Shown one piece after another: positions 26,302-54,539 of a stretch of DNA of 64,000 nt (positions are counted from its first letter, which is position 1; each line of letters begins with the position of its first letter). The notes beneath the pieces are model-generated. The model was not told where the DNA came from and ran no database searches. It saw only the letters and a program-made list of their open reading frames with translations. Location of the stretch: NCBI GenBank assembly GCA_004298505.1, contig SCRO01000056.1, positions 1 through 64,000 of the forward strand, given 5' to 3'. The stretch is from Rhodanobacter sp. (lineage in GTDB: Bacteria; Pseudomonadota; Gammaproteobacteria; Xanthomonadales; Rhodanobacteraceae). The position numbers were made by a program, and so were the translations under genes.

Positions 26302-26377
26302 GGCCGGGTAGCTCAGTTGGTAGAGCAGGGGACTGAAAATCCCCGTGTCGGCGGTTCGATTCCGTCCCCGGCCACCA
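26302..26377 (+). tRNA. tRNA-Phe (GAA)
   Basis: 76 nt with encoded CCA. Acceptor GGCCGGG/CCCGGCC, D-loop GCTCAGTTGGTAGAGC, anticodon loop CTGAAAA (GAA) on a GGGGA/TCCCC stem, T-loop GGTTCGATTCC. It marks the switch from conserved genes to accessory DNA; no repeated copy of its 3' end was found. Confidence 0.97.
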
Positions 26378-26688: not shown

Positions 26689-27183
26689 TCATGGCTTGCC
26701 GGTATTCAATCTCAGCATCAGCGTCATCGGATGCAACGACGACGACTGAAAACCATAGTGTTCGTAGAAGTCCTTGGCACGGTCGTGAAGCGTATGCACC
26801 AGCAACGCTCGGACACCAGCGTTCTGAGAAACCACCACTGCCCGGTTGACGGCGTCTTGCAGGAGGGATGCGCCAAGCTTGATACCCTGCGCTCGATGAT
26901 CAACCGCCAGCCGAGCCAGCACCATCACCGGAACTGGATCGGGCATGTTCCGACGCACCGAGCTGGTTGCCATCTGGTGTGAGACAGCGCCTGCAGCCAT
27001 GGCGTAGTAGCCGTAAACACGGCTGTGCTGATCCGTCACTACAAACGTGCGGCTGGCACCGCTCATTTGGTTGGTCATTGCGCGGCGCTTGAGCCACGCG
27101 TCGAGAACGGCCTCGCCGCACTCAAATTCATCCAGAAGGTGGGTGGACGCGAGCGGCTGAGGTGCGTTGAATTGCAAGCTCAT
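26689..27183 (-). CDS. GNAT-family toxin of a TacAT/AtaT-type module
   Basis: 164 aa GNAT acetyltransferase. In this toxin family the enzyme acetylates the amino group of charged tRNAs and blocks translation. Seen: DEFECGEAVLDAWLKRRA N-terminal family motif, YYAMAAGAVSH, the acetyl-CoA loop region (LARLAVDHRAQGIKLGASLL) and catalytic-type Tyr in FYEHYGFQ. ATG overlaps the antitoxin stop by four bases. Confidence 0.88.
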   Translation of the reverse strand: MSLQFNAPQPLASTHLLDEFECGEAVLDAWLKRRAMTNQMSGASRTFVVTDQHSRVYGYYAMAAGAVSHQMATSSVRRNMPDPVPVMVLARLAVDHRAQGIKLGASLLQDAVNRAVVVSQNAGVRALLVHTLHDRAKDFYEHYGFQSSSLHPMTLMLRLNTGKP

Positions 27184-27452
27184 GCCTTGACTGTGGTCCA
27201 AGGAGCCGCCACGGCCATGAGGCGCTCAAGCCCCGGATTGTGGCTTGGTGGGGCGTCGAGCATTGCCGTGAATTGCTGGAATTTGTCGGTATTCAGGCTG
27301 AAGAAAACCTGGTCGAGTACTACCGCCTGCGCTTTGTCGCAGGCAGCCTCGAGCATGAAGTCCGAACGGTTCTTGCCCAGCAGAGTTGCAGCGTGATCAA
27401 TCAAGTCTCGCTGCTCGGGCAGTGCCCGTAGGTTAATGGCGGCGTCACGCAT
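27180..27452 (-). CDS. DUF1778 (TacA-type) antitoxin
   Basis: 90 aa ribbon-helix-helix antitoxin: INLRALPEQRDLIDHAATLL and RSDFMLEAACDKAQAVVLDQ are the DUF1778 signature. ATG chosen for the AAGGAG six bases upstream rather than the longer frame. Upstream lies a perfect 14-bp inverted repeat, the likely autoregulatory operator. Translationally coupled to the toxin. Confidence 0.9.
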   Translation of the reverse strand: MRDAAINLRALPEQRDLIDHAATLLGKNRSDFMLEAACDKAQAVVLDQVFFSLNTDKFQQFTAMLDAPPSHNPGLERLMAVAAPWTTVKA

Positions 27453-27476
27453 GGTTTTCTCCTTTAGGCGCATATA

Positions 27477-27515
27477 CAACAGCTACACGCAAAATAGCCG
27501 AGCGTGTAGCTGTTG
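27477..27515. promoter_or_regulatory. Operator palindrome of the TacAT-type module
   Basis: Perfect 14-bp inverted repeat CAACAGCTACACGC (27477-27490) and GCGTGTAGCTGTTG (27502-27515) with an 11-bp spacer, 24 bp upstream of the antitoxin ATG. Expected binding site of the antitoxin's ribbon-helix-helix domain. Confidence 0.75.
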
Positions 27516-27599: not shown

Positions 27600-28007
27600 T
27601 CAACGCATCCAGTTCTCGCACTGCAGCCCCGGCACCCGCCGGAACTCGCGCAGGTTGTCTGTGACCAACACCAGGTCGCTCGCAATGGCCTGCGCGGCAA
27701 TCAGCATGTCCATGGGGCCGATTGGTGAGCCCTTGCGCTCCAGGGCGGCGCGAATGCGGCCGTAGACCATGGCGCAGTCGCCAGCGAAGGGTAGCGGCTC
27801 GAGTCCGCGGGCCAGCACTTCCAGGCTGGCAAGCGCTGGCGCGCGGTGTAGCGACGTTTCGGCGCCGTACAGCAGTTCGGCATGCACCAGCGACGACAAA
27901 AACAGCCGCGACGGCGCCAAGGTCACCAGTCGGTTCAACAGGCTGCGCGGCTCACTTTTCAGCGCCGCGATGACCGTGCACGTGCCCAGCAGGTAGGCAT
28001 GCGCCAC
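27600..28007 (-). CDS. vapC: VapC-like PIN-domain toxin with altered active site
   Basis: 135 aa PIN ribonuclease. The usual first catalytic Asp in L-L-D-T-N is replaced: the sequence reads YLLGTCTVIAAL. The other acidic positions are kept (VHAELLYGAE, GPMDMLIAAQ, LVTDNLREF). PIN nucleases need all of them for metal binding, so this toxin may be inactive or act through binding only. Begins with GTG three bases after the antitoxin stop. Confidence 0.85.
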   Translation of the reverse strand: MAHAYLLGTCTVIAALKSEPRSLLNRLVTLAPSRLFLSSLVHAELLYGAETSLHRAPALASLEVLARGLEPLPFAGDCAMVYGRIRAALERKGSPIGPMDMLIAAQAIASDLVLVTDNLREFRRVPGLQCENWMR

Positions 28008-28370: not shown

Positions 28371-28538
28371 CTAGCAGCCTGTCGGACTTTACTCGGTCGG
28401 TCTGCAAATCCATCTGTGCGGTCCATATTTCCGCCGCTTTTTGACCCATAGAACCACTATGGGCCTGCAAAGCGTCGAAAATCTGTCCTCGCACAGCTGA
28501 ATTTTCGCCTCAACCGGCAAAGTCCGACAGGCTCCTAG
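28371..28538. mobile_element. 168-bp MITE, copy 1
   Basis: Bounded by CTAG at both ends, with terminal inverted repeats GCAGCCTGTCGGACTTT and AAAGTCCGACAGGCTC. It can fold on itself (CTGTGCG pairs with CGCACAG; CCATAG/CTATGG hairpin in the centre). It is about 98% identical, in reverse orientation, to 54275-54442 (three differences). CTAG fits the YTAR target of IS5-family elements, so an IS5-type transposase may move it; none is in the window. Confidence 0.9.
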
Positions 28539-28943: not shown

Positions 28944-30209
28944 ATGCCCATGCGTGATGACCCCCCTGGCGCGGCCACGGTTGCGCCCGTCCTGTCCGAA
29001 AGCGAGGTACCGCTATCACCCCCTCCATTGCTGGGGCTATCGGCACTATTGCGTGCAGCTTTCCACGAAGAGGATCTGACCGTCTTTGTGCCCGAACTGA
29101 TCAAGCGCGCCGAGTGTGAGCGTGATGCCTACGCGATGCTCGACCTGGCCCTGATCCAGCAGCTGCGTTTCCAGAAGGAAAACGGGCTGGCCGTGCTGGG
29201 CGAAGCGCTGAAACTGCAGCAGCTGTTCCGCATCGCCGGCGCGGATGACGCGGAGGTCCGGCTGCTGGTCTTCAAGACACCCGGCGATCTGATGGCAAAC
29301 ACCCCGATCGAATGCATACTTGATGATGCCGGGTTTGCCCTTGACGTGCTTTATGTGGGGCCAGGCCTGCCGTGGCCACCGCGGTTGCCGCCGCACGACC
29401 TGGTTTTCGTGGCAATCAGTGAGGCCGATGCGCATTGCTCGACGCTGGCCCGGCTGGCCGGCTATCTGGAAGGCTGGCCCCGCCCGGTTCTCAATGCACC
29501 GCAACGCATTCCACGGCTCTCGCGCAGCGAGGCCTTCGAGGTCCTGCGTGGCGTGCCCGGGCTGCGCATGGCCGCCACCCGCCGCATCGAGCGTGCGGCA
29601 CTGCACGCGATAGCCGCTACTACGCGGCCGGATGGCCCACTGCTGCCCGAGATCAGGTTTCCGATCATCCTACGGCCTCTCGGCTCGCATGCCGGGACCG
29701 ACTTGTGCCGGATCGACACGCCCGCCGAGATAGCGCGCTATCTTGAACAAGTCGCCGCGCAGCAGTTCTTCGTCGCCAATTTCATCGACTACGCCTCGGC
29801 CGATGGCCTGTACCGCAAGTATCGGGTGGTGCTGATCGATGGGCACCCCTACGTCTGTCACATGGGGATTTCGCGGCACTGGATGGTGCATTACCCCTAT
29901 GAGGAAATGAAGGCCGATCCGGCCCGACGCGCCGAAGAGGCGCTGCTGATGGAGCACTTCGACGACGATTTCGTGCTCAGGCACGGCGATGCCCTGCACG
30001 CGATGCAGCAGCGATTCGGCCTGGACTACGTCGGCTTCGACTGCGCGGAAACCGCAGCCGGCGAACTGCTTGTTTTCGAAATGGCCAATGCGCTGGTGGT
30101 CCATGCCATGGATGATCCCGCGCTGTATCCCTACAAAGCGGCACAGATGCACAAAGTTTTCAGCGCGTTCCACGCCATGCTGCGTCGTCATACTGAACTC
30201 GACGCCTAA
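28944..30209 (+). CDS. RimK-like ATP-grasp ligase of unknown substrate
   Basis: 421 aa. N-terminal helical part (LLRAAFHEEDLTVF, LRFQKENGLAVLGEALKLQQ), a pre-ATP-grasp region (ILDDAGFALDVLYVG, HDLVFVAISE) and a C-terminal ATP-grasp domain (FPIILRPLGSHAGTDL; FVANFIDYASADGLYRKYRV; DYVGFDCAE; LLVFEMANALV). Such enzymes join a carboxylate to an amine through an acyl phosphate. No ribosome site decides the start (28944 or 28950). It is 22 bp upstream of an aminotransferase gene, so the two probably form one operon; substrate unknown. Confidence 0.8.
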   Translation: MPMRDDPPGAATVAPVLSESEVPLSPPPLLGLSALLRAAFHEEDLTVFVPELIKRAECERDAYAMLDLALIQQLRFQKENGLAVLGEALKLQQLFRIAGADDAEVRLLVFKTPGDLMANTPIECILDDAGFALDVLYVGPGLPWPPRLPPHDLVFVAISEADAHCSTLARLAGYLEGWPRPVLNAPQRIPRLSRSEAFEVLRGVPGLRMAATRRIERAALHAIAATTRPDGPLLPEIRFPIILRPLGSHAGTDLCRIDTPAEIARYLEQVAAQQFFVANFIDYASADGLYRKYRVVLIDGHPYVCHMGISRHWMVHYPYEEMKADPARRAEEALLMEHFDDDFVLRHGDALHAMQQRFGLDYVGFDCAETAAGELLVFEMANALVVHAMDDPALYPYKAAQMHKVFSAFHAMLRRHTELDA

Positions 30210-30231
30210 TCACACGGACCAATCTTCCCTC

Positions 30232-31398
30232 ATGTTGTCAAACCTGCTCAATTTCTCCGGTGGCCCAGGCGCCCTGCCACCCTCGGTGCTGGATCAGACC
30301 CAGCGCGCGATCATCGCTTTGCCGGACACCGGCATTTCCATTCTTGGCATGAGCCATCGTTCGGACTGGTTCCGGCGCTTGCTGCAGGAAGCGCAGGACA
30401 ACATTCGCAGCTTCCTCGACATACCCGAACGTTTTCATATACTGTTTCTGCAGGGTGGCAGCAGCCTGCAGTTCTCGATGATTCCGATGAACTTCGCGGC
30501 CGGCACCAAGGCAGCGGCTGAATTCGTGGCCTCCGGTTACTGGAGCCGCAAGGCGATCCGCGAAGCCGAGGCCGTCGTCCGCTCCCGTATCGTGTGGGAT
30601 GGCGTCGCCGAAGGTTACCGACGTCTGCCGGCCTGGTCGTCGCTGGATCGCTCGGCACAGGCGCCGTTCCTCCACTTCGTCAGCAACGAAACCGTGGAAG
30701 GCCTGCAGTTCCGTGATGTGCCCCGGTCCAACGGGGTGCCGCTGATCGCGGATATGTCCTCAGACTTCCTGTCGCGCCGCTTCGACATCGGCGACTATGC
30801 GATGGTGTATGCCCACGCGCAGAAAAATCTCGGTCCTGCCGGGGTTACCGTGGCGCTGATCGACGACGCGATGCTGTCGCGCATACCGGCCGGACTACCG
30901 CCGATGCTAGACTACCGAACCCATGTCGAACATGGCTCAAACTACAACACGCCACCGGTGTTTTCGATCTACGTGCTCAATCTGGTAAGCCGATGGTTGC
31001 GCGACGAGATTGGTGGCGTAGATGCGATGGAGAAGATCAACCTGAGCAAGGCAGCCATGTTGTACCAGGCGCTGGAACGGCACCCGGAAATGATCGAGAT
31101 TCACGCCGAACCGGCAGCACGTTCGGCGATGAATGTCGCCTTTCGCTTCCGCGACCCGGCACATCACGACATATTCCTGGCCGAGGCCAACGCCGCGGGC
31201 TTTTCCGGCCTGGAGGGTCACCGTTCGATCGGTGGCCTGCGTGCCTCGCTCTACAACGCGGTCAGTGCGCAGGCGGTGCAGCAGCTGGCTGGATTGCTCG
31301 ATGACTTTTGCGCAGCGGCGTGCTTGAAACACGCCGGCAAGGCCCGTAGGTTAGGCATTAAGCCAAAGCGGCCCCAGCAAGAGCCAGCTTCATCGTAG
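30232..31398 (+). CDS. SerC-like class-V aminotransferase
   Basis: 388 aa PLP enzyme related to phosphoserine aminotransferase. LNFSGGPGALPPSVL at the start, HILFLQGGSSLQFSMIPMN, and the PLP-lysine motif AHAQKNLGPAGVTV are typical of SerC; GLEGHRSIGGLRASLYNAV near the end matches too. A housekeeping serC is usually beside serA or pheA; here it follows an ATP-grasp ligase, so a specialised role is likely but a serine biosynthetic function cannot be excluded. Confidence 0.85.
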   Translation: MLSNLLNFSGGPGALPPSVLDQTQRAIIALPDTGISILGMSHRSDWFRRLLQEAQDNIRSFLDIPERFHILFLQGGSSLQFSMIPMNFAAGTKAAAEFVASGYWSRKAIREAEAVVRSRIVWDGVAEGYRRLPAWSSLDRSAQAPFLHFVSNETVEGLQFRDVPRSNGVPLIADMSSDFLSRRFDIGDYAMVYAHAQKNLGPAGVTVALIDDAMLSRIPAGLPPMLDYRTHVEHGSNYNTPPVFSIYVLNLVSRWLRDEIGGVDAMEKINLSKAAMLYQALERHPEMIEIHAEPAARSAMNVAFRFRDPAHHDIFLAEANAAGFSGLEGHRSIGGLRASLYNAVSAQAVQQLAGLLDDFCAAACLKHAGKARRLGIKPKRPQQEPASS

Positions 31399-31401
31399 GG
31401 C

Positions 31402-31436
31402 GCTTTCAGACCGGCCACTGAGACCGGTCTGAAAGC
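31402..31436 (+). terminator. Strong stem-loop after the aminotransferase gene
   Basis: Perfect 13-bp stem GCTTTCAGACCGG/CCGGTCTGAAAGC with a nine-base loop, four bases after the stop. No T-run follows, so it may be a bidirectional stem or mRNA-stabilising hairpin rather than a classical terminator. Confidence 0.65.
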
Positions 31437-31496
31437 ATTCCGAGCAGCCGGTTTACATCGTAACTCTTTGATAAATAAAGATTACTAATTCAAATA

Positions 31497-31948
31497 CTCG
31501 ACCCCGCATCGCTGCTGTCTGAGTTCGCCTCACGCCTTTACGACCCTTCGCTCATCGAGCCCTTCCGGCTGCGTCCAGGGGCATTCACCCGGCAACGCAA
31601 ACTCACCGTGCCGCGCGTGTTCGCGATGATGTTGTCTGGCATGTGTACCTCGGTGCAAGCCGCACTCGACGACCTGCTGGTGCTCGATAGCGGCTTGGTC
31701 GGCCACACCATGGTGTGGCCACACTCGTGCAGGCGCAACACGCCTTCTGCATGCGTGTGGATGCCTGCAGCTGGGCCTGCGTCAAAGCGTTCGGGCGTAG
31801 CGGTGAGGCGCAACGCAGCGTCACCCTGACCGCGCCCACGGTCGCTGATGCGGCTACCTACGAACTGCGCCGCGAACCCACGCCCGTGCGTCTGATTCGT
31901 GATGTGACGCCGAGCGGCGCCTGGTTGTGGAACATCGCCAGCGAGTGA
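31497..31948 (+). pseudogene. IS4-type transposase remnant with frameshift
   Basis: First frame reads ASLLSEFASRLYDPSLIEPF and FTRQRKLTVPRVFAMMLSGM, the N-terminus of an IS4-like transposase. Coding resumes in another frame from about 31717 (LVQAQHAFCMRVDACSW ... SVTLTAPTVADAATYELRRE) and ends at 31948. An internal deletion or frameshift joins the pieces. Confidence 0.65.
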
Positions 31949-31949
31949 T

Positions 31950-32210
31950 TCCCCCACGCCATCCAGATCCTCGACAAGTTCCACGGCAAGGAACATGTGC
32001 ACGAGGTCGCCAACATTGGACCGAACCCGGCGCCAACGCCGCCCTGCGTTGCTGTCGCCTCAGCCGGCGCTACGAGGACTTCTGGGCATGGCGCGCAGCA
32101 CAAGCCCTCCCCAACGCAGCCGCATGACTCCGATTCAACCGCCCTTTATCACTTTTGGGGCGTGCCTCCGTGACAACACGATGCCCCGCAGGCTATTGAC
32201 ATTTACCTGG
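31950..32210 (+). pseudogene. Second transposase fragment (ISL3/ISKra4-like)
   Basis: A short segment reads HAIQILDKFHGKEHVHEVAN, which resembles the catalytic region of ISL3- or ISKra4-type transposases; the remainder is out of frame. Family assignment is tentative. Nothing else is recognised up to the outer-membrane protein gene. Confidence 0.45.
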
Positions 32211-32358
32211 GCTGAATAGTGTACCAGCCGGTATTGAAATCCTTCAGGATGAAACCTATCTAATGCCACGGCGCCACCCGTCTCGGGTAATCGCCGAGGC
32301 CACGGTCCACCTCTCCCCAAGGCCCCGTGGTCGTCCCCAAAAGAAAAAGGAGTACCCC

Positions 32359-32934
32359 ATGAAAACCACAATTCTTGCCGTTGCCCTCGCTACCGCCGGC
32401 GTACTGGCCGCCCCTTCCGTCCTTGCCCAGGATTCCGCGCCTGCCCAGCAGGGCTGGTATGTCGGAGCCAACGCCGGCTATGCCCACGTCAGCAAGGGTG
32501 TGTATGACGGTGGCGATATTGCCGGTGGCGTGAAGGGCGGCTACCGCTTCAGGCTGAACCCGAAGACTTCGCTTGGTGTCGAGGTGGGTTATCAGTATCT
32601 GGGCCAGGTCGACGCCTCTGGCTACAACGGCCGATCCAGCTCCAAGCTGCGTGGCACCACGCTCGGCCTCGATCTGCGCTACAACTTGAACCCGAGCTGG
32701 TACGGCGAAGTGCGTGGTGGTGCCTTCTACGCCCAGGGTCAGGGCTTTACCCGGGGCGCAAGCCCGCAGTTCCGCGATTTCGAAAGCGTCAATTACTACG
32801 TCGGCGCGGGCGTGGGCTACAACATTAACCCGCAGTGGAGCGTGGGCCTCAACTACGACCGCTACCAAGGCAGGGGCGGGGATGTTCATCTGGACACGGA
32901 TGCCTACACGGCCTCGGCGGAATATCGCTTCTGA
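32359..32934 (+). CDS. Small outer-membrane beta-barrel protein
   Basis: 191 aa: signal peptide (MKTTILAVALATAGVLAAPSVLA) cleaved before QDSAP, then about eight alternating amphipathic strands (GWYVGANAGYAHV; IAGGVKGGYRFRL; TSLGVEVGYQYLG; NYYVGAGVGYNIN) and a C-terminal EYRF ending in Phe, the outer-membrane insertion signal. OmpA-like/opacity-type porin fold. Ribosome site AAAAGGAG well placed. It stands alone, with its own terminator. Confidence 0.85.
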   Translation: MKTTILAVALATAGVLAAPSVLAQDSAPAQQGWYVGANAGYAHVSKGVYDGGDIAGGVKGGYRFRLNPKTSLGVEVGYQYLGQVDASGYNGRSSSKLRGTTLGLDLRYNLNPSWYGEVRGGAFYAQGQGFTRGASPQFRDFESVNYYVGAGVGYNINPQWSVGLNYDRYQGRGGDVHLDTDAYTASAEYRF

Positions 32935-32964
32935 ACCCTCCGGTCATTCGGAACATGCTGCGAG

Positions 32965-32990
32965 ACGGGCGCCCATGGCGCCCGTTTCTT
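32965..32990 (+). terminator. Terminator of the beta-barrel gene
   Basis: ACGGGCGCC-CAT-GGCGCCCGT followed by TTCTTT; begins 30 bases after the stop. Confidence 0.8.
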
Positions 32991-33211
32991 TAATGGACAT
33001 TTTACTCCACCGCAATTTTCTTTCTTGCTTTCTTGCGACCGCTTGGCCTACCAGGGTAAAAAGGAATCACGACCACTGGTAACGACGCCTTCTTCAGGGT
33101 GTCATACACATGCTGCCTCCAGAACGGCCAGACGTTGTGGACGCAATTGAAGTTGCAAAAGTTGTCAAACTGCTTTTGACTGAACTTTTTCGTGGTCCGC
33201 GTGCGTGCAGC

Positions 33212-34096
33212 TCAGTGGCGCATGAAACGGTGGCGCGCCACGGACAACATCAGTCGTTGCAGCAGGTTGTTGTTGCCGCCCGGCCGCCACGTGTGTACGA
33301 GCTTGTTGCGATAAGCATCGAAGTGCAGGCCGTGCGGTGCCGCGAGCACCTTGCCCCTGCCAAGCAGGATCTTCAACGCCTGGGTAGCGGCTATCCCGGC
33401 GCATATTTCACACGCCATCGGCGTCGACGGACCCCGGTGGTTGACCAGGTCCACCGCAGACGGCTCGACCAGATAGCCCTGATGCAGTACGGCCGGTGCC
33501 AATCCCACCATGAAGCGCAGCAACTGCTCGTTGGTCGTTTTCCCTTCCAGCCGGAAATACTGTTCGAATGTCATCCGCCCCGGCAGGAACGCCAGCACCG
33601 CGGCACCCATGCCCAACGGCGCTGCGGTAAGCGCCGGAATGCCGCGCTCGGCACACAAGGCGAACAGCTTGGCACGGATATCGAGTACGAAGAAATCCAG
33701 CCCGTCGACATACAGATCCACCCCGGACAGGAACTGCTCCATGTTGTCGACGGTGACACCGTTGGAAAACTTGTTGATGTCCAGATCCGGATTGATATCC
33801 CGCGCCATCCGGGACACGACCTCGACTTTGGGCTGGCCCATCGTCGACTGGAACGCGCCGGCCTGTCGGTTGAGATTTTCCGTGCCGAAACGGTCCAGAT
33901 CCGCCAGGTTGAACGACTCGATACCGAGTCGGGTCAGGGTCAACAGATGGCTACCGCCCACACCGCCTAGTCCGGCAATCGCCACGCGCCTGGAACGAAG
34001 CCGCGCCTGGTCGGCCGCGGTAATCCAGCCGATCGTGCGGCTGAAGGCCGTGGCGTAGTCGAACGGCGCGGTGGTGACCGGTGCATCAGACATCAT
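33212..34096 (-). CDS. ThiF/MoeB/E1-like adenylyltransferase
   Basis: 294 aa. Nucleotide-binding RVAIAGLGGVGGSHLLTL (28-50 region), DLDRFGTENLNRQAG, a conserved Asp in YVDGLDFF, and CEICAG near 220. These enzymes adenylate a C-terminal carboxylate or a small acid. Related domains occur fused to a nitroreductase-like domain in proteins such as mycobacterial Rv1355c (from memory); here a nitroreductase-like gene lies 1.9 kb upstream on the same strand, separated by a PEP-CTERM gene. Ribosome site weak. Confidence 0.88.
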   Translation of the reverse strand: MMSDAPVTTAPFDYATAFSRTIGWITAADQARLRSRRVAIAGLGGVGGSHLLTLTRLGIESFNLADLDRFGTENLNRQAGAFQSTMGQPKVEVVSRMARDINPDLDINKFSNGVTVDNMEQFLSGVDLYVDGLDFFVLDIRAKLFALCAERGIPALTAAPLGMGAAVLAFLPGRMTFEQYFRLEGKTTNEQLLRFMVGLAPAVLHQGYLVEPSAVDLVNHRGPSTPMACEICAGIAATQALKILLGRGKVLAAPHGLHFDAYRNKLVHTWRPGGNNNLLQRLMLSVARHRFMRH

Positions 34097-34541
34097 GCGA
34101 CACCTATCTCGGCATTATTGCGTAAAACCGTAGCCAATCAGGTACGGTAACACCGGCTTGCGGCGGGACACAATCGCGCCATTTAGCCCCAGGGGTCGCG
34201 ATTGATGGGGCATGCACAGCCACAATGGCCCTGCAAATCGTCCATCGACGAGAGACGGATCGCGCAAGATGGTCCGGCATTATTCACGGCACTGGCGCCT
34301 TGGCCCGGCTCGGGCCTCTGCTGCACCGGTACTTTCGCCGTGTCGTCGCCTACTTGTCCCGGACCACGCCTCGCTACAGCACTAGCTCGAGCAGGGGCCG
34401 GATGGAGTCGTGGCGCGTGGCGCGGCCGTGTTGCCGCGACCGTCCAGCAAACCGGTTCAATAAAAGCAGCGCACAGAAAAATGGCGCCGCTTGGGAAAGC
34501 GGCGCCATCAATTGTCAAACAGCATCCACCAGCTGCCTGCC
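34097..34541. other. Intergenic region before the ThiF gene
   Basis: About 445 bp. Contains the terminator of the PEP-CTERM gene near its right end and the ThiF leader on the left. Plus-strand frames are open but have no signature, signal peptide or ribosome site; no gene supported. Confidence 0.5.
34475..34508 (-). terminator. Terminator of PEP-CTERM gene 1
   Basis: ATGGCGCCGCTT/AGCGGCGCCAT stem with a five-base loop, followed on the minus strand by ATTTTTCTG; 34 bases after the stop. Confidence 0.85.
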
Positions 34542-35366
34542 TTATGAGAGCTTCTCAGCCTCTTTGCGGCGCCACCAGGTGAAGAGGCCCAGGAAAGCCA
34601 AGCCAAGGCCCAGCAGACCAGCGGTACCCGGCTCCGGTACTGGCACTGCCGTGGTGCCGGTCAACGAACCGTTACCCTCAATCGGATAATGGCAGAGATT
34701 GGTCGGGTCGGACGATACTGACGTACACGATTTAGCCGGCTTGGTCAGGAACGACGAAACAAGGTTGAAATCCGCCCATCCGCCGATACCGTCGGAAATG
34801 GTGTTGGAGTTGAGCCAGGGCGCCGCATCGCCTCCCATGACATCCACCAACCCGAATCCGCCCGAACCAACCGTGGGGTCGCTGGTGGTGCCATCGATCG
34901 TGGCATAAAGCTGCCCCAACTGACCCGGCTGCGAAAAGCCGGCACCTGGGGCTGTATGGCCGGCCAAGGTGACCCATGGCGTACCGCCGCTGGCCGAGGT
35001 GGGATTGCCAAAGCTGAAGCTTCCAGCAGGGGCAACGTAGAACTCGTAGCTTCCGTTGTTAAACACGACCTGGTTACCGTTGATGTTCGACACCGTGTAC
35101 TGGAACGTGAAGGTGAGATCGCAACTTGCACAAAAACTTTTGTTCCCGTTGATCGAGCCGATCTGACCGTAGCCCATCAGTGTGTTGCCGACGCTCGAAA
35201 CGGACGATTCGCGCAGGTCAATCGACTGAATAGTCAGGTCGAAATCACTACTGCTATTCCACGTGATGCCGTCCACATTGATGGGCGTCGCAAGCGTCGA
35301 TCCACTCCACGCACCCAGCGCCAGCGCGCACGCAAGTGCGGTTCCGATGTATTTCTTCTTCAACAT
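34542..35366 (-). CDS. PEP-CTERM sorting-domain protein 1
   Basis: 274 aa. Signal peptide (MLKKKYIGTALACALALGAW ... STLA), Gly/Ser/Asn-rich beta-structured body, and a C-terminal sorting tail: VPVPEPGTAGLLGLGLAFLG, then WWRRKEAEKLS. PEP-CTERM proteins are cleaved and transferred by an exosortase (XrtA) in bacteria with matching exopolysaccharide clusters. ATG follows GAGGAG. Preceded by a sigma-54 promoter and an upstream dyad shared with the other PEP-CTERM genes. Function of the body unknown. Confidence 0.9.
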   Translation of the reverse strand: MLKKKYIGTALACALALGAWSGSTLATPINVDGITWNSSSDFDLTIQSIDLRESSVSSVGNTLMGYGQIGSINGNKSFCASCDLTFTFQYTVSNINGNQVVFNNGSYEFYVAPAGSFSFGNPTSASGGTPWVTLAGHTAPGAGFSQPGQLGQLYATIDGTTSDPTVGSGGFGLVDVMGGDAAPWLNSNTISDGIGGWADFNLVSSFLTKPAKSCTSVSSDPTNLCHYPIEGNGSLTGTTAVPVPEPGTAGLLGLGLAFLGLFTWWRRKEAEKLS

Positions 35367-35446
35367 GACTTTCTCCTCGACTGAGAACCAATCCAGACAA
35401 CCGTAGCGGTGGCGCCCGATTGACGCTGACCTCAATGTATCCAAAA

Positions 35447-35461
35447 GCAAAGGACGTGCCA
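35447..35461 (-). promoter_or_regulatory. Sigma-54 promoter of PEP-CTERM gene 1
   Basis: Minus strand reads TGGCACG-TCCT-TTGC, perfect -24/-12 element. Predicted start about 70 bases before the ATG; the conserved dyad at 35525 lies 64 bp further upstream. Confidence 0.85.
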
Positions 35462-35524
35462 TGACTGTAAGATATTGTTTTAAATGAAATTGATTATTCG
35501 AGGCTCCCGGCTTCACTCGTTATT

Positions 35525-35541
35525 TGTAAGGTATCCCGACA
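35525..35541 (+). promoter_or_regulatory. PEP-CTERM box 1 (putative PrsR site)
   Basis: TGTAAGGTATCCCGACA. Partial dyad (TGT..GG...CC..ACA) as expected for a Fis-type enhancer-binding protein. Begins 64 bp upstream of the sigma-54 element and reads on the strand opposite to the gene, as in the other two copies attached to PEP-CTERM genes. Confidence 0.75.
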
Positions 35542-35992
35542 TCATGTCGTGGTGGAGTGCCGGTGATCGAATCGAGCACGACGTACCAGGCACGCGAACC
35601 GAGGATGCAACGTATCGTTGTAACATGTTGATTAGTGACCTTTTTCAGTAAAAAGCCGTCGATCGGCCGCCGACAATCGGACCAGTATTCGTTACCTGCG
35701 CCGGCACGCCTCACATCTCTGGTTCGGATGTAACCATTTGTTTTCGTTACAATTTATCCGGCAAAATCGACTTCAAGCCGTATGTGTAAAGTATCCCGAC
35801 ATCGGATGGAAACCACAGGTACTTCACACCGCAGCGCGAACCGCGAGGGCAACCAAAGGAAGGCCGACACGTTTCTGTTTCGGCGTTACGTCGCCGGGCG
35901 CCTACGCCATGCCGCGACTGATGACCGAAGAACCTGTCGCGCCGTGTCTGGAGCGATAGCACTCGAACGAATGTCGCTCACCTGCCCAGCTG
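35542..35992. other. Intergenic region with orphan PEP-CTERM box
   Basis: About 450 bp, AT-richer than its surroundings. Apart from the second dyad at 35785 there is no gene with a signature; small frames on both strands lack ribosome sites. It may be the remains of another PEP-CTERM gene or a composite enhancer. Confidence 0.5.
35785..35801 (+). promoter_or_regulatory. Orphan PEP-CTERM box 2
   Basis: TGTAAAGTATCCCGACA, 16 of 17 identical to box 1 and in the same orientation, but no sigma-54 element at the usual 62-64 bp distance (35707-35723 checked). Could assist the promoter of PEP-CTERM gene 1 from 324 bp away. Confidence 0.6.
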
Positions 35993-37066
35993 TCATGAAG
36001 CGTCGAAACTTGCGAGCGCTCGTCGTCCACTACGATCACGTGGTGCGGAGCGCGCATAGCCAATCCGTAAAAACACCAGCCCGTACCCCGGCGCACACAG
36101 CTGGCCCAGAGCCGCACCCATACGCGAGAGCCACCGTTGAAAGGCCGGCTCGATGGGTACGAACCCCAGGCTGAGTACCCCCGCCGCCGCATACGGCTGG
36201 ACCGACAGCCCGTCCAGCGTGGCCTGAAGCCACACACGCTGCAACGCGCGGCCCCCGGCGAGCACATCGGATCGCGCCGTGGACGGAATGACGAGCAGGC
36301 ACAGGCCGGGCGACAGCCGGATGGGCAGCCAGGCCGAGCGCCAGCCCAGCACCGACGCCGCACCCAGCCGGTTGAACAGGGCCATCAGCGCGGGACGACG
36401 CAGCGCCTGAAAGAACGGGCGCATCGGTGGCTCCACGGCCAGTGTCGCCGGAGCCAGGCCCTCCTCGCAGGCGCCGTGCCAGCCAGTGGCAAAGCGGATG
36501 CTCGAAAACAATTCCGCGTGCAGCGTCGGGCTCCTGAAACGCAGCGTCTCGGCCTGCCGGATGACGCCCAGTGCGGCTTTTCTCTCACGCGCTGTCGGTG
36601 GCCACCAAAGCCGCTGCCCGGGAATCAGCCGGGCCTGGTCATTCAGGCGCGCCTGCGTCTCGGTAGTGATCGGGCCGCGCCAGGGGAAGCGACGATCCGT
36701 GTGACGCTGCTCGATGGCTCCAGCCAGCGGCTCGATGGGGTCGCCCTCGGGATCGCGGCGCCAACGGACGCGGGCGACCCACAGCTCGTCGTCGTGCTGC
36801 GGGAAAGGCTGCAGGTCTGCCGCATAACCCAGCGAGCGGGCGTGGATGAGCATGTTTTCCAGGCACGCGCCGGCGGCCAGGTCGCTGAGCACATAGCGGG
36901 TATCGGATACGCGGCCACTGCGGCCTGCATCGATGTGCAGGTCCAGCGCGTCGCCGCGCCACGCAAACCGCCACGGCTGCGAATTATCCGCCGACGGCGC
37001 GGCGATGCCTGCGCACAGAATGGCTGCTTTCGTCTGTCGATCCACGGTCCGCGCCCGTCCCTGCAT
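35993..37066 (-). CDS. Nitroreductase-like flavoprotein (Rv1355c/Acg-type half)
   Basis: 357 aa. AAILCAGIAAPSADNSQPWR at the N-terminus is the FMN-binding start of nitroreductase-fold proteins of the Acg/SagB type; EQRHTDRRFPW and YAAAGVLSLGFVP are further conserved blocks. ATG at 37066 preferred to a TTG 45 bp upstream. In relatives this fold oxidises peptide-derived rings or is an inactive FMN store. Its neighbours, a ThiF-like enzyme on one side and a FeeM-like acyltransferase on the other, suggest joint action on an acylated amino acid or peptide. Confidence 0.8.
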   Translation of the reverse strand: MQGRARTVDRQTKAAILCAGIAAPSADNSQPWRFAWRGDALDLHIDAGRSGRVSDTRYVLSDLAAGACLENMLIHARSLGYAADLQPFPQHDDELWVARVRWRRDPEGDPIEPLAGAIEQRHTDRRFPWRGPITTETQARLNDQARLIPGQRLWWPPTARERKAALGVIRQAETLRFRSPTLHAELFSSIRFATGWHGACEEGLAPATLAVEPPMRPFFQALRRPALMALFNRLGAASVLGWRSAWLPIRLSPGLCLLVIPSTARSDVLAGGRALQRVWLQATLDGLSVQPYAAAGVLSLGFVPIEPAFQRWLSRMGAALGQLCAPGYGLVFLRIGYARSAPRDRSGRRALASFDAS

Positions 37067-37555
37067 GACAACTGATTCCGGCCGATGACGGTTACCTCGT
37101 GTACCCGGCAATCAGCTGGCCCGCACAGGTACTATACGCGAGGGCAAAGACGTGGCACCGAAATACGCCCCTCCAGGAACTGAAGGTCGGGGCGCCACGC
37201 CTGCTGGTGGAAGCTGCTACCCCTGCTGCCTGCTGCCTGCCATGACCCGAACGCGTGCGGCCCAACGTACCGATATCCGGTTGCCGGCATGCGATGCCTA
37301 TCGGGACAAGATCCGGGCGTTCCTGAACGTTTCCCCAGATAGCGACGCGGTTCACACAATCGCTGCGTCCAAAGTTATACAATCGGGCATGCCCGGGCGG
37401 TTGCGCTGCGTTCCGGGACTCATGGCGATGACGCATCCGTTGCAGCACCGACCAGCCCATTTGGGGCGACGTCGGCAATACGGGGGCCCAGCTCCAGGTG
37501 ATCAGGAGGGCAGCGTTCCGTGAAACAACCTGTCCCCAGATCGGCGTATTGAAGC
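37067..37555. other. Divergent intergenic region, nodulin-free, nothing recognised
   Basis: About 490 bp between the divergently transcribed nitroreductase-like and FeeM-like genes. No PEP-CTERM box, sigma-54 element or repeat was found. Open frames lack ribosome sites and family motifs. Confidence 0.5.
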
Positions 37556-38362
37556 ATGAATCCAATCAGTTCGGTAGAAATGCCTGAGACAGTCGTCGAT
37601 ATCAGGCCGCGTCTCAATCGTTCAGCGGTGCGCGGCAGCGAGCCTTGGTGTTTTTGCGCGACCAGCCTTGAACAGGTGGAATCGGCTTGGCGGTTGGTCT
37701 ATGAGCGCTACTCACACATGGGGTTGATTGACGAAAACCCGTTTGGCATTCATGCGGCTCCCACTTCCGTGGGACAGCATGCCTGCGTGATATGGGGCCC
37801 GGAAGGGCCGGAAGTCGGCTATACGATGACGCTATTTCGCGACAATCCCACGGGGCTCGCGCTGGATAGCGTATATGCACGAGAGCTGGATGAACTGCGA
37901 CAGCAGGGGCGCCGCCTGCTTGAGGTGGGAATGCTGGCGGATCGTCGCCGGAGCGCTGCACGCAGCGTCGGGGCATTGTTCAGCATGATGCGCTGGGCCA
38001 TATACTATGGGTTGCATACTGATTTGACCGATATTGTTATCGGTGTGCATCCGCGGCACGCCCAGTTCTACGTACGTTGTTACGGCTTCGAGCAATTCGC
38101 GCCACCGACAAGCTACCCCTTGGTGCGAAACAATCCGGTGGTGCCCTTGCGCCTGCGCCTGCTCGAGGAACTGGCGAAAGACGAGTTGCCACGAGGGCTC
38201 GTCAATGCGCGCGACAACCCATTACCCGCCCGCAAGTTCTTGCATCGCTTCGCGTTTGAGCCCCAGCAACTGCGCGGCTCCCTGATTGCGGGTTATTTGA
38301 AAGCCTGCCATGGTGTTGACCCGTGCCGGATGGCCGACCCCGGCCTCGCTCGGTCAGCCTAG
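37556..38362 (+). CDS. FeeM-like N-acyltransferase, PEP-CTERM/exosortase-associated type
   Basis: 268 aa GNAT-fold protein. The pattern SAWRLVYERYSHMGLI, then YTMTLFRDNPTGLALDSVYA, ELRQQGRRLLEVGMLADRRR and HPRHAQFYVRCYGFE is that of FeeM-type long-chain N-acyl amino acid synthases and of the acyltransferases found in exosortase gene clusters. They move an acyl chain from acyl carrier protein to an amino acid. The TAG stop is formed by the CTAG at the edge of a MITE, so the C-terminus may be altered from its ancestor. Confidence 0.82.
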   Translation: MNPISSVEMPETVVDIRPRLNRSAVRGSEPWCFCATSLEQVESAWRLVYERYSHMGLIDENPFGIHAAPTSVGQHACVIWGPEGPEVGYTMTLFRDNPTGLALDSVYARELDELRQQGRRLLEVGMLADRRRSAARSVGALFSMMRWAIYYGLHTDLTDIVIGVHPRHAQFYVRCYGFEQFAPPTSYPLVRNNPVVPLRLRLLEELAKDELPRGLVNARDNPLPARKFLHRFAFEPQQLRGSLIAGYLKACHGVDPCRMADPGLARSA

Positions 38363-38515
38363 CAGCCTGTCGGACTTAGACCAGACACGGGCCTCGTACG
38401 TCGATTTTCGGCGACATGAAGGTCCCGAACTCAATTTGAGGCGACCTACGCCGACAGTTTTGATCACTTTTTGATCAAAATTTTGTGATTTTTCGTAAGT
38501 CCGACAGGCTGCTAG
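38359..38515. mobile_element. 157-bp MITE, variant interior
   Basis: CTAG at both ends; terminal inverted repeats AGCAGCCTGTCGGACTTA and TAAGTCCGACAGGCTGCT match those of the 168-bp MITE, but the interior differs and contains a TGATCA-rich stretch. Its left CTAG supplies the stop codon of the acyltransferase gene; its right CTAG is shared with the next element. Confidence 0.85.
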
Positions 38516-38679
38516 GAGCTTGGGCCGTAGAAATTTTTGGGCTGCGATGATGCTCTCATCCATAGGCTGCGCCTCTCGTCGGGCTTGCATAGAATGACTA
38601 TGCGTACCCTCCTCCGATAGACGCACCCTATGGCGATAGCATCATCGCTTCCCAAAGTTTCTACGGCCCAAGCTCCTAA
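38512..38679. mobile_element. 168-bp MITE of a related type
   Basis: Starts with the CTAG shared with the preceding element and ends with CTAA (both fit YTAR). Perfect 20-bp terminal repeats AGGAGCTTGGGCCGTAGAAA. Central palindromic GCATAGAATGACTATGC. Same length as the 28371 and 54275 elements but different termini, so a sister family. Confidence 0.8.
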
Positions 38680-38954: not shown

Positions 38955-39017
38955 TCTTTGGATCTATGCTGGAGCTGCAATAATCTTAACTTGTTGAAAA
39001 ATAAAGCTTTATTTTTA

Positions 39018-39032
39018 TGGCATGGGAATTGC
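39018..39032 (+). promoter_or_regulatory. Sigma-54 promoter of PEP-CTERM gene 2
   Basis: TGGCAT-GGGAA-TTGC followed by T; correct GG/GC spacing. Predicted start near 39044, 34 bases before the ATG. Confidence 0.8.
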
Positions 39033-39077
39033 TCCTCCTTGGGGTACAGGGGCGGCACTCAACTCAGAGGGTATCTC

Positions 39078-39932
39078 ATGAACATGCTGAAGAAACAAAT
39101 CGGTGCCGCGGTGGCACTGGTCGCGGGGATGCTGTTCTGCGGCATCGCCAGCGCCACCACAGCAACAACGGTGTGGGGCAACAGTGCCCTTAGCGGCCTG
39201 TACGAATACGACCTGACAACCGGAAATCTGTTACATAGCTTTGACCCCAGTTCTACCTTCGGCGGGGATTGGAATGGTCGAGGGGTCGTGCAGGTTGGCA
39301 ACACCCTGTACCTGACCCAGGCGAACAGCAACAATGTTTACAAGATGGATGCAACTACCGGCGCCGGCCAAGGAACCGCATTCACAATCGCCGGTACTTC
39401 CGGGCTCTCCGCCATTGCCTATGATGGAACAAATTTCTGGGTTGCGGATTATTCAGGATCGAATCAGTCGTACCTTTATTCGCCGACCGGCACGCTACTC
39501 AAAACGATCTCGCTGACGAATTGCACTGGGCATTGCGATGGCTTCGAGTTTTTCAACGGCAAGCTGATCGAGAATCGTGGTGATACAGTTGCTCCGTATG
39601 ATATCTACGATACGAACGGTAACCTCCTGACGCCCGGTTTCATTACCACGACCACATCCTCGACCGGCATTGCCTTCGATGGGACGGATTTCTGGACGTC
39701 CAACATTTTCGACGGTAGCCTGAGTCAATGGAACGGGACTACCGGCGCCTTTATCGGGAACCTTACTTTGCAGCATCCAACTTCTGGCAGTTTTGTAATC
39801 GAGGACCTTTCCGTCAACTACTCCCAGGTTATCCCCCCGACAGGTGTTCCTGAGCCCTCCGAACTCGGCATGTTCGGCTTGGGTGCACTGCTGATCGGCC
39901 TGTTCGCGGGCCTGCGCCGACGCTTCGACTGA
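39078..39932 (+). CDS. PEP-CTERM sorting-domain protein 2 (beta-propeller-like body)
   Basis: 284 aa. Signal peptide (MNMLKKQIGAAVALVAGMLF ... ASA), a body with repeated blade-like units (LYEYDLTTGNLLHSFD; VYKMDATTGAGQGTAF; YSPTGTLLKTISLT; SQWNGTTGAFIGNL) and the sorting tail VPEPSELGMFGLGALLIGLF ending GLRRRFD. Expected XrtA substrate. Sigma-54 promoter and PEP-CTERM box upstream; terminator after the stop. Confidence 0.9.
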   Translation: MNMLKKQIGAAVALVAGMLFCGIASATTATTVWGNSALSGLYEYDLTTGNLLHSFDPSSTFGGDWNGRGVVQVGNTLYLTQANSNNVYKMDATTGAGQGTAFTIAGTSGLSAIAYDGTNFWVADYSGSNQSYLYSPTGTLLKTISLTNCTGHCDGFEFFNGKLIENRGDTVAPYDIYDTNGNLLTPGFITTTTSSTGIAFDGTDFWTSNIFDGSLSQWNGTTGAFIGNLTLQHPTSGSFVIEDLSVNYSQVIPPTGVPEPSELGMFGLGALLIGLFAGLRRRFD

Positions 39933-39959: not shown

Positions 39960-40202
39960 TTCCAACAACCCCCCAGCGACGGGGGTTGTTTTTGGGGTAC
40001 ACCCGGAATGATGGATGGAAATGTACTTCTGGTCAGTGGCAATCCACTCGGGGCCTGAGATGCGGCCCATTGATTCGGCAACGGTCGCGGCTGGAATCAC
40101 ACACCGAATCCCGGACTTCGACCCGGTCGACGGTGACCCGAACCACGGTGGGGGCACAGAGCTCGAAGTCGCGGAAGTCAGTGTGTCAGCCCGTAACTGC
40201 GA
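39960..40202. repeat. Direct repeat A (~245 bp)
   Basis: From the terminator hairpin through GATGGATGGAAATGTACTTC, CAGTGGCAATCCACTCGG and GTGTGTCAGC. About 80% identical in the same orientation to 42009-42258. Function unknown; the two copies bracket the HicBA-like module. Confidence 0.8.
39964..39993 (+). terminator. Terminator of PEP-CTERM gene 2
   Basis: Perfect 10-bp stem AACAACCCCC/GGGGGTTGTT, seven-base loop, then a T-run. It also forms the beginning of direct repeat A. Confidence 0.85.
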
Positions 40203-40289
40203 TCACCGCGAACTGACCTTGCCCCTGAATGAAGAAATAAAGACCTACAGTTTTTATTCCTTGAGAGGAGAAAACATTCACTCGGTGAG

Positions 40290-42001: not shown

Positions 42002-42258
42002 ACTCCTGATCCAACAACTCCGGCGACGGGGGTTGTTTTTTGGGTGCGCCCGGAGTGATGGATGGAAATGTACTTCTGATCAGTGGCAATCCACTCGGAG
42101 CTTGGGATGCGTCCCACTGATTCGGTAACGGTCGCGGCGAGAATCACACCGAATCCCGGGCCTCGACCCGGACCACGATGACCCGGACCACGACGGGTCA
42201 TGCCGGGGTCACAGAGCTCGAAGCCGCGGAACCCAGTGTGTCAGCGCGGAAGACCTGC
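42002..42258. repeat. Direct repeat B (~250 bp)
   Basis: Starts ACTCCTGATCCAACAACTCC, hairpin with GGGGGTTGTT and T-run, then the same GATGGATGGAAATGTACTTC and CAGTGGCAATCCACTCGG as repeat A. Ends 37 bp before the galE stop; the hairpin may serve as a terminator. Confidence 0.8.
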
Positions 42259-42294
42259 ACTCACTGCGGACTGGACCAGGGAGTGCTACAAGCA

Positions 42295-50044: not shown

Positions 50045-50084
50045 CTCCGCGCACGGCGCGGGAGCGAACCCAAGGGGTAATGAC

Positions 50085-53256: not shown

Positions 53257-53460
53257 TTACCAATTACCGCAATAAAACCCCAGCAAAATCAGCCCGACCC
53301 CGATGACCCAGCCGATCGACATCGCAACCGCAAGCCGGCCAATCCTGACGCTTTTCAATCGCCACACCAGATCAGACAGCAGGCACCACAGGCCGGTGAA
53401 TACGACAAGCGCAAAGATGCCCCACCCGATATGACCGGATATCCAGAAGAAATCGTTCAT
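53257..53460 (-). CDS. Small two-helix membrane protein downstream of the decarboxylase-like gene
   Basis: 67 aa with two membrane helices (IGWGIFALVVFTGLWCLLSD; LAVAMSIGWVIGVGLILLGF) joined by a basic loop. ATG overlaps the preceding stop (ATGA), so translation is coupled. A frame-shifted second copy lies at 57338-57505, which supports it as a true gene. Function unknown. Confidence 0.7.
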   Translation of the reverse strand: MNDFFWISGHIGWGIFALVVFTGLWCLLSDLVWRLKSVRIGRLAVAMSIGWVIGVGLILLGFYCGNW

Positions 53461-54146
53461 GAGACAACCAAGCCCTCCGCAACAGCTGTTTGCCCCGCCC
53501 AGACGCGGCCGCCCGTGCGCACCAACAGCTTGGCGCTGGCAGGCAGCTCCAGCACCACCGTGCTACCCAGCAATATCCTGCCGATCCTCTGGCCCCGCTT
53601 GATCTCCTCGCCCTCGGCTACCCATGTCTCGATGCGCCGCGCCGCGAGGCTGGTAATCAGGCGCACTGCGACTTGTTCACCGTCACTCGCAATCACGACG
53701 CGTTTTTGCACCGGGCAGGATTTCTCGCGCAGAAAGGAAAATTCGCGTCCCTCACCGTCCATGAAGTCATCACCATGCGATTCCACGCGAAGTACCCTCC
53801 CGGCGACCGGGCTGCGCTGCACATGCATGTCCCAGAAACTGAGCGCGATCACCAGGTAGCGCACCTCTCCGCGCACGTCTGCACTGGTCACCAACCCATC
53901 CGCGGGCGCCAGCATGCTGGTGCCCGGCGGTGCTACACGCTCCGGGTCATTGTAAAAATGGCGCAGAAACGCACGCTGGAATTCTCCCCGCTGCAGCCAC
54001 GCGCGAATCTGCATTTCCGGCCAGCGCTTGCGCGGCGCAAGCCAGCGCCGTATCAGCGGCGAAGGATACGGAAAGTAAAGCGCCCACAACACGATAGCCG
54101 CAGCCAGCAGACACAAGATCACGATTTGCAGAACAAGTACCGTCAT
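53457..54146 (-). CDS. Phosphatidylserine decarboxylase-like proenzyme
   Basis: 229 aa. One N-terminal membrane helix (LQIVILCLLAAAIVLWALYF), then APADGLVTSADV, SFWDMHVQRSPVAGRV and the self-cleavage site ILLGSTVVLELP whose Ser becomes the pyruvoyl group. Archaetidylserine-decarboxylase-type short relatives occur in exosortase gene clusters. Start at 54146; longer frame upstream is interrupted by the MITE edge. Polar-lipid or cell-envelope role likely. Confidence 0.88.
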   Translation of the reverse strand: MTVLVLQIVILCLLAAAIVLWALYFPYPSPLIRRWLAPRKRWPEMQIRAWLQRGEFQRAFLRHFYNDPERVAPPGTSMLAPADGLVTSADVRGEVRYLVIALSFWDMHVQRSPVAGRVLRVESHGDDFMDGEGREFSFLREKSCPVQKRVVIASDGEQVAVRLITSLAARRIETWVAEGEEIKRGQRIGRILLGSTVVLELPASAKLLVRTGGRVWAGQTAVAEGLVVS

Positions 54147-54274
54147 GTCACTTTGAATCCCAATGAGTGTCGGTTCTTTATCGTACGAGCACAGCCTGCG
54201 CGCGAACCCTGCGACGCCGATGTCTGCGACCACCCGCAGCACGGGCTCCAGGCCGTTCGGCAATTCAGGCCGCA

Positions 54275-54442: not shown

Positions 54443-54539
54443 GGTATACGGCGGCGAAGTCGAAAGGTATCTCCATCAAACTGGCTCGACTCTCCAGCCC
54501 CTCAAAACCTCAGCCCTCCATGGCGGTTCCCCGCGTAAG

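Follow-up and report, generated by a model that had tools for sequence, protein, structure and literature searches.

What do five enzyme genes beside PEP-CTERM genes make in Rhodanobacter sp., and do they belong to one pathway? The genes lie in a 64,000-nucleotide stretch of DNA (GenBank assembly GCA_004298505.1, contig SCRO01000056.1, positions 1 to 64,000), called the window throughout, which is part of a 241-kb contig (C120). They encode an ATP-grasp-like ligase, a second phosphoserine transaminase (SerC2), a ThiF/E1-like adenylyltransferase, a nitroreductase-like protein and a FeeM-like N-acyl amino acid synthase. An earlier note on this DNA had proposed that the five form an undescribed pathway leading to a lipidated amino acid or small peptide. 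All five genes were confirmed as open frames without internal stops, within the 9.5 kb that the note had named. However, they look like two units rather than one pathway. The FeeM-like, ThiF-like and nitroreductase-like enzymes, termed the trio, probably form a split version of the acyl-oxazolone/N-acyl dehydro-amino-acid pathway that is linked to the genome's own exosortase A system; this degree of confidence covers the chemistry and the exosortase tie, not a contact of the lipid with the PEP-CTERM protein PEP1 described below. The reading builds on gene identity, kept gene order, intact signature residues, purifying selection, promoter-like elements and co-occurrence with exosortase, and takes all of its chemistry by analogy.

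The FeeM-like N-acyl amino acid synthase (37556-38362, forward strand) matched PF21926 (E 6e-37, 127 bits versus a cut-off of 27) and, by sequence, the FeeM crystal structure 2g0b (E 3e-8). It was the sole FeeM-family match over cut-off in the genome. The model for the exosortase-associated acyltransferase, TIGR03694, found no match in the window's genome, where the synthase is of the FeeM type; at other ThiF loci TIGR03694-like genes stand in for it. The ThiF/E1-like adenylyltransferase (33212-34096, reverse strand), a predicted oxazolone cyclase, matched PF00899 (E 2e-40) and NF006077 (427.8 bits, cut-off 266). An alignment of 15 sequences showed G42, G44, G45, V46, G47, D68, N74, N76, R77, Q78, K90, D131 and D134 to be invariant; the nucleotide loop (GxGGVGG) and the arginine, lysine and aspartate residues are at positions expected for adenylation, as in ThiF and MoeB. 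The third enzyme is a nitroreductase-superfamily flavin oxidase-like protein (35993-37111, reverse strand), whose first start is a TTG at 37111, the true start possibly lying further in. It matched PF00881 (31.9 bits, cut-off 23.5) and, by sequence, the Acg structure 2ymv (E 4e-7). Its best NCBIfam score was obtained with the Rv1355c family NF005901 (E 9e-43, below cut-off), and NF047509 was also matched below cut-off. Among six aligned sequences P39, S40, D42, N43, Q45, R136 and R140 were invariant (PSxDNxQ and two arginines). The FeeM-, ThiF- and nitroreductase-like proteins aligned with consecutive segments of the fusion model NF011425 (positions 37-206, 313-589 and 610-796; model length 989), the FeeM-like protein its N-terminal part. 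Because the three match parts of one fusion model, this is direct evidence that the trio acts together.

Judged by their sequences, the three enzymes correspond to the acyltransferase, the ATP-dependent cyclase and the flavin oxidase of acyl-oxazolone/N-acyl dehydrotyrosine pathways (OxzAB, TyzABC, TrzAS, stieleriacines). In mycobacteria N-acyl-Tyr, -Phe or -Trp is formed by the acyltransferase and cyclized by the ThiF protein to an oxazolone at the expense of ATP; the flavin oxidase uses oxygen to introduce a double bond (PMC10404671, PMC12856293). Tyrazolones and tryptazolones are the products of homologues in the same arrangement (PMC10404671, PMC12856293), and dehydrotyrosines have also been linked to such homologues (PMC12479983). 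Rv1355c, which the earlier note had named as a ThiF-nitroreductase fusion, is indeed TrzS, which makes acyl-tryptazolones and for which Asp217, Arg540 and Gln651 are named as residues (PMC12856293). The chemistry was published between 2021 (through citations) and 2025 and is therefore not undescribed, as had been supposed; the window holds a likely member of a known pathway. The expectation that a lipidated amino acid is formed is supported for the trio by analogy with these published enzymes. The FeeM-like synthase would first N-acylate an amino acid, probably tyrosine or phenylalanine, with a fatty acyl group. The ThiF-like enzyme would then, with ATP, activate the carboxyl group, which would close on the amide to give an oxazolone. 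Finally, the nitroreductase-like flavin oxidase would introduce a 2,3 double bond in an oxygen-dependent step, and hydrolysis would yield the N-acyl dehydro-amino acid.

Between the nitroreductase-like and the ThiF-like gene lies PEP1 (34542-35366, reverse strand), a PEP-CTERM protein with a signal peptide by reading, a CxxC motif and a VPEP sorting signal. Its open reading frame (ORF) extends to 35516, the ATG at 35366 being the likely start. PEP1 matched PF07589 (27 bits, cut-off 20.7) and TIGR02595 (21.1 bits, cut-off 16). The earlier note had taken this gene for a neighbour; its kept position argues that PEP1 is the fourth gene of the set. The trio genes span 5.2 kb in the window, and the same set was present, in the order FeeM (opposite strand), nitroreductase, PEP1, ThiF, in 4/4 other Rhodanobacteraceae fetched with ThiF, with protein identities of 79-81% for FeeM, 79-83% for the nitroreductase, 54-72% for PEP1 and 87-89% for ThiF. 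In one of them, R. thiooxydans LCS2, this quartet stands between the tRNA-Phe region and wecB, at the edge of the exosortase cluster, and is inverted relative to the window. Purifying selection was seen over all six genes compared with relatives (ratio of nonsynonymous to synonymous substitution, dN/dS, 0.09-0.43), with values of 0.18-0.32 for FeeM, 0.23-0.28 for the nitroreductase-like gene, 0.25-0.43 for PEP1, 0.12-0.18 for ThiF, 0.18-0.24 for ATP-grasp and 0.09-0.10 for SerC2.

A PEP1 profile was constructed from the window and four Rhodanobacter copies, with the sorting signal removed, and run on 7131 ORFs of 95 ThiF-centred loci. Apart from the four seeds among these loci, seven proteins were matched, 7/7 within 1.9 kb of ThiF, versus 35/85 for other PEP-CTERM-like ORFs (Fisher p 0.003); as all loci are ThiF-centred, this test compares PEP-CTERM families with each other. 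An earlier iterated profile was set aside, as it had pulled in ordinary PEP-CTERM proteins (60 matches, 51 loci); locus L128, strong in that profile, was absent from the matches of the rebuilt one. The match in L026 was among the seven though not flagged by the PEP-CTERM pattern; C79 and C82 of PEP1, invariant in eight sequences, are not kept in it. Over the whole genome the PEP-CTERM model gave five matches, one being PEP1 and one lying 1.5 kb past the FeeM gene. The latter belongs to a second PEP-CTERM gene (38958-39932, forward strand, likely start 39079), 0.7 kb after FeeM, for which a C-terminal match was found in LCS2 only among the four relatives.

Upstream of PEP1 a sigma-54 type -24/-12 site was found (35446-35461, reverse strand; TGGCACGTCCTTTGCT, no mismatch), at the same place in 5/5 Rhodanobacteraceae quartets, the window included; with one mismatch allowed, the pattern has nine matches in the window versus 3.7 expected. 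Two 17-bp boxes on the reverse strand are candidate PrsR sites, a proximal one (35525-35541, TGTCGGGATACCTTACA) and a distal one (35785-35801, TGTCGGGATACTTTACA). In 5/5 quartets a spacing of 63 bases separates the proximal box from the sigma-54 site, and the second box is also present in the four relatives (each with at most two mismatches); as the 17-bp pattern was derived from the two boxes of the window itself, a chance estimate for the window is not independent, while the relatives are. Distant PEP1 loci carried box and sigma-54 site before PEP1, mismatches allowed, in 4/7 cases (L026, L030, L033, L112), with a spacing of 63-74 bases in L030, L033 and L112 but not in L026; at L027, L094 and L129 the two were not both found before PEP1. 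The second PEP-CTERM gene has a sigma-54-like site at 39018-39033 and no 17-bp box. Sigma-54 control of the whole set was rejected, as sites stand only before PEP1 and this second gene. PEP1 would probably be made under the control of PrsK-PrsR and sigma-54 and then be sorted by XrtA. With at most two mismatches the 17-bp box occurs three times in the window, and the third copy (58642-58658) precedes another PEP-CTERM-like gene (57720-58607, reverse strand). The encoded protein has a PAPSSS-type C-terminus, was not matched by the PEP-CTERM model and is perhaps a variant exosortase substrate.

The resident exosortase system is represented in the window by PrsK, PrsR and PrsT of the XrtA/PEP-CTERM type (46602-52922, forward strand; TIGR02916, TIGR02915 and TIGR02917, all over cut-off). 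XrtA itself is encoded further along this contig, outside the window (78530-79309; TIGR03109, 287 bits, over cut-off). Co-occurrence was analyzed in a draw of 398 genomes of the phylum, with ThiF called at E <= 1e-40 and exosortase, by the XrtA model, at E <= 1e-15. ThiF was found in 16 genomes, exosortase in 72 and both in 14. Thus, exosortase was present in 14/16 genomes with and 58/382 genomes without ThiF (Fisher p 1.2e-9). Counting only matches over the XrtA cut-off, the figures were 9/16 versus 26/382 (p 8e-7), and per family 6/8 ThiF-positive families had an exosortase. In the 14 genomes with both, placement by hand showed 10 pairs within 50 kb on one contig, three on different contigs and one far apart. 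Among the named ThiF-positive genomes (50 of the 80 behind the loci below) 47/50 had an exosortase, 41 of them over the XrtA cut-off. The trio thus tracks the exosortase system, as the earlier note had proposed. A survey of the order found ThiF in 1/151 genomes, that of the window; the idea that ThiF is unique within the order was rejected, since the named collection holds four further ThiF-positive Rhodanobacteraceae, and the trait is therefore patchy. A whole-genome PEP1 search covered 60 genomes of the phylum draw (all 16 with ThiF and 44/58 with exosortase and without ThiF) and gave at least four non-self matches, three adjoining ThiF (G169, G491, G536) and one in G481; these counts are lower bounds, as the single-sequence search missed a copy in G518 that tblastn had seen. 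The G481 locus (L157) is a 6.2-kb contig with a PEP1 homologue, an ORF that reads as a FAD-linked oxidase and a 39-residue ThiF remnant, and this cluster seems to have lost its cyclase.

The surroundings of ThiF were compared for the best 80 of 575 loci from named genomes. Within 6 kb of ThiF a nitroreductase gene or domain was found at 68/80, an acyltransferase at 61/80 and one or both at 77/80. A PEP-CTERM-like ORF, recognized by our own sequence pattern, occurred at 54/80. ThiF-nitroreductase fusions were counted at 26/80 loci; a long ThiF ORF was present at 27/80, but that of L119 lacks an oxidase match.

Several observations weigh against the proposed trio pathway and its tie to exosortase. 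Exosortase matches were missing from two of the 16 ThiF-positive genomes of the phylum draw (G493, G262) and from 3/50 of the named ones; 5/14 exosortase-positive ThiF-positive genomes stayed below the XrtA cut-off, and the 14/16 is made up of genomes that are not independent, 9/16 ThiF-positive genomes coming from one family. At the same threshold the PEP-CTERM model matched 7/14 control genomes, in two of them over cut-off. Of 15 ThiF loci outside the named set, 9/15 had no nitroreductase within 6 kb of ThiF. In the window FeeM is encoded on the opposite strand, and a gap of 0.45 kb with a terminator-like hairpin (such hairpins being no commoner in the window than in shuffled sequence) separates PEP1 from the start of ThiF; therefore, the set is not one operon here. 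A search of the window and its relatives revealed no sigma-54-like site before the trio enzyme genes. Synonymous divergence from the same relatives was 0.65-0.84 for PEP1 versus 0.33-0.69 for the three enzyme genes. Finally, an ATP-grasp orthologue (65-71% identity) was present in 3/4 other ThiF-positive Rhodanobacteraceae, which speaks against the division into two units.

This division concerns the ATP-grasp-like ligase with a TPR-like N-terminus (28944-30209, forward strand) and SerC2 (30232-31398, forward strand). SerC2 matched the phosphoserine transaminase model NF009112 (578.9 bits, cut-off 563), and a further SerC copy, 40% identical, is encoded on contig C84. For the ATP-grasp-like protein itself no Pfam family match was obtained. 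Its family gave weak profile matches to structures of carbamoyl-phosphate synthase, RimK-type and D-Ala-D-Ala ligases (E 0.001, 0.005 and 0.02), which rank behind matches of the TPR-like N-terminus, and the ATP-grasp label is the weakest of the five assignments. If all five enzymes formed a single pathway, ATP-grasp and SerC2 would supply a further amino acid or ligate it onto the lipid. The closeness of all five genes within 9.5 kb fits this proposal, and among the 151 genomes of the order the window's genome, the only one with ThiF, is also the only one with an ATP-grasp match of more than 32% identity. In G542 a single contig carries ThiF, XrtA and the ATP-grasp gene, which would be about 66 kb away from ThiF if both are numbered in the same direction. 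That three relatives have both units is the strongest point in favor of a link, and shared descent may account for it. In these three relatives ATP-grasp and SerC2 are paired amid other genes, and R. thiooxydans LCS2 has the quartet without an ATP-grasp match. Over the 398 genomes the ATP-grasp family occurred in 29, of which 4/29 had exosortase and 1/29 had ThiF, so that no association was seen. The synonymous divergence of the pair was about 2 to 4 times that of the three enzyme genes in each of three genomes: 0.83-0.89 versus 0.33-0.35 in G542 (PEP1 0.74), 1.33-1.46 versus 0.53-0.69 in G541 (PEP1 0.82) and 1.09-1.31 versus 0.35-0.42 in G539 (PEP1 0.65). The two units thus seem, from these sequence distances, to have different histories. 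Neighborhoods of ATP-grasp were inspected at 14 loci from 28 relatives; a SerC relative was found at 2/14, a protein of a pyridoxal phosphate (PLP) decarboxylase cluster within two genes at 8/14 (two of the eight were checked against family models). On co-occurrence, neighborhood and depth of divergence the five-enzyme pathway, which we hold to be highly improbable, was rejected. Of the earlier five-enzyme set the FeeM-, ThiF- and nitroreductase-like part stands, supported by NF011425 and by co-occurrence; the inclusion of the ATP-grasp/SerC pair and its link to exosortase are not supported, and the pair is judged a separate two-gene unit. At L058, L062, L064, L066 and L067 the ATP-grasp family accompanies a diaminobutyrate-decarboxylase-like PLP enzyme and a protein of 438-549 residues, two copies of which were scanned and matched neither Pfam nor NCBIfam models; together these genes may make up a small pathway of their own. 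The literature searched contained no paper on ATP-grasp with phosphoserine aminotransferase.

Other explanations accept the quartet and assign it a different role. E1-like and nitroreductase-like proteins modify peptides or proteins in azole-forming peptide clusters. The ThiF/nitroreductase pair could, in the same manner, modify a peptide or protein, with PEP1, which co-travels with the pair, as the substrate. We consider this very unlikely: PEP1 carries a signal peptide and the trio enzymes show none to the eye, and the acyltransferase near ThiF at most named loci and in NF011425 indicates an N-acyl amino acid as substrate, on which the characterised homologues act as well (PMC10404671, PMC12856293). 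A stronger competitor keeps the chemistry and drops the physical tie. The product would be a free, secreted signal or surfactant, and PEP1 and exosortase would be biofilm genes that share only regulation or inheritance with the trio. Stieleriacines, which influence biofilms, were recovered from culture supernatants (PMC7293339), the sigma-54 sites stand at PEP-CTERM genes and not at enzyme genes, and other kinds of PEP-CTERM proteins are also common near ThiF (the 35/85 above). Against it, a single PEP-CTERM subfamily is repeatedly found next to ThiF in genomes that are only distantly related (7/7), and PEP1 keeps its position in the set although it evolves fastest. We give this explanation a real chance, somewhat short of even. 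A random accumulation of decaying genes in a region rich in MITEs (miniature inverted-repeat transposable elements) beside a tRNA gene might be suspected from the MITE-like palindromes separating the units, from tRNA-Phe at 26302 and from the inversion relative to R. thiooxydans LCS2. It is already contradicted by the order kept in 4/4 relatives and by selection on four genes without stops (dN/dS 0.12-0.43), and is extremely unlikely.

Within the proposed exosortase-tied pathway, gene linkage suggests a role for PEP1 at the surface, where it would bind or display the lipid or be attached to it; we see the chances of this as about evenly balanced. Far bolder is the proposal that the acyl-oxazolone is an activated lipid for the exosortase system, transferred to PEP1 or joined to an exosortase substrate, so that the pathway would provide PEP-CTERM proteins with an anchor that they otherwise lack. 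The ring is opened by acid hydrolysis, by methanol and by ethanol (PMC12856293), and an oxazolone could serve as an acyl donor. If true, this would account for the lasting association of N-acyl amino acid synthases and ThiF cyclases with one PEP-CTERM subfamily. Two findings count against it, and we regard it as quite improbable. Most exosortase genomes lack this ThiF (58/72), and the XrtA cluster contains a phosphatidylserine-decarboxylase-like gene (53457-54275, reverse strand; archaeal anchor model NF038088 below cut-off), whose product could supply exosortase substrates with an amine lipid and so rival the oxazolone as anchor. No paper on exosortase with a lipid anchor was found in the literature searched.

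The MITEs mentioned in the earlier note were recovered as MITE-like palindromes at 28371-28538, 38358-38516 and 54275-54443. The last is a 98% copy of the first, and the first two end alike (CTAGCAGCCTGTCGGACTT). A relative of the palindrome at 28371-28538 lies just upstream of the ATP-grasp/SerC2 pair at L172 and L174. The tRNA-Phe gene (26302-26377) is adjoined by 26689-27479 and 27600-28007 (reverse strand), with a GNAT-like protein and a small partner as well as a VapC-type protein. The GNAT-like pair resembles a toxin-antitoxin module by reading only, with no NCBIfam match; the VapC-type protein matched NF047863 below cut-off. A direct repeat of about 265 bases, 82% identical, occurs at 39961-40215 and 42010-42273.

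Concerning the wider meaning, genes for N-acyl amino acid synthases were known to lie near exosortase genes, a link to PEP-CTERM/exosortase reportedly made by Craig, Cherry and Brady in 2011 (from its title and a citing passage); those synthases stand beside exosortase genes like the FeeM gene of the window. No explanation of this proximity was found in the literature searched. What the present data add to this link is the cyclase and the oxidase of the pathway, together with one recurring PEP-CTERM protein whose gene has a sigma-54 site; this offers a concrete protein-lipid pair to study in a soil bacterium. The literature searched gave no account of the whole link of exosortase, ThiF, oxidase and PEP-CTERM, which may exist in print, and the main texts of PMC10404671, PMC12856293 and PMC12479983, as far as available, do not mention exosortase or PEP-CTERM. 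The analogy may also bear on a puzzle, the presence of a ThiF gene where no oxazolone was observed (PMC12479983): the isolated dehydrotyrosines could be hydrolysed oxazolones.

Among the known systems TrzA-TrzS (Rv1356c-Rv1355c) and OxzA-OxzB of Pseudoalteromonas rubra have the same three activities as the trio, with ThiF and oxidase fused there and separate in the window; OxzAB is described here as reported in citing papers. TyzA-TyzB-TyzC of Mycobacterium tuberculosis (C12:0-tyrazolone) is likewise a set of three separate genes of the same enzyme classes, with the acyltransferase of FeeM-like fold on the opposite strand as in the window; the main text on it, in the part available, does not bring in exosortase or PEP-CTERM (PMC10404671). 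The kyonggic acid, thalassotalic acid and stieleriacine clusters of Massilia, Thalassotalea and Stieleria hold genes for N-acyl amino acid synthase (NasY), ThiF and nitroreductase side by side and are linked to 2,3-dehydrotyrosine (PMC12479983). In the cluster of S. maiorica a PEP-CTERM gene (Mal15_37300) lies, by locus number, between ThiF (37260) and nitroreductase (37310) (PMC7293339). For the promoter the nearest counterpart is PepA of Aquincola tertiaricarbonis, whose model NF033554 PEP1 matched with 37 bits, below the cut-off of 80; PepA is encoded by an RpoN-dependent PEP-CTERM gene whose sigma-54 promoter has TGGCAC as its -24 element, with an enhancer predicted upstream (PMC9850573).

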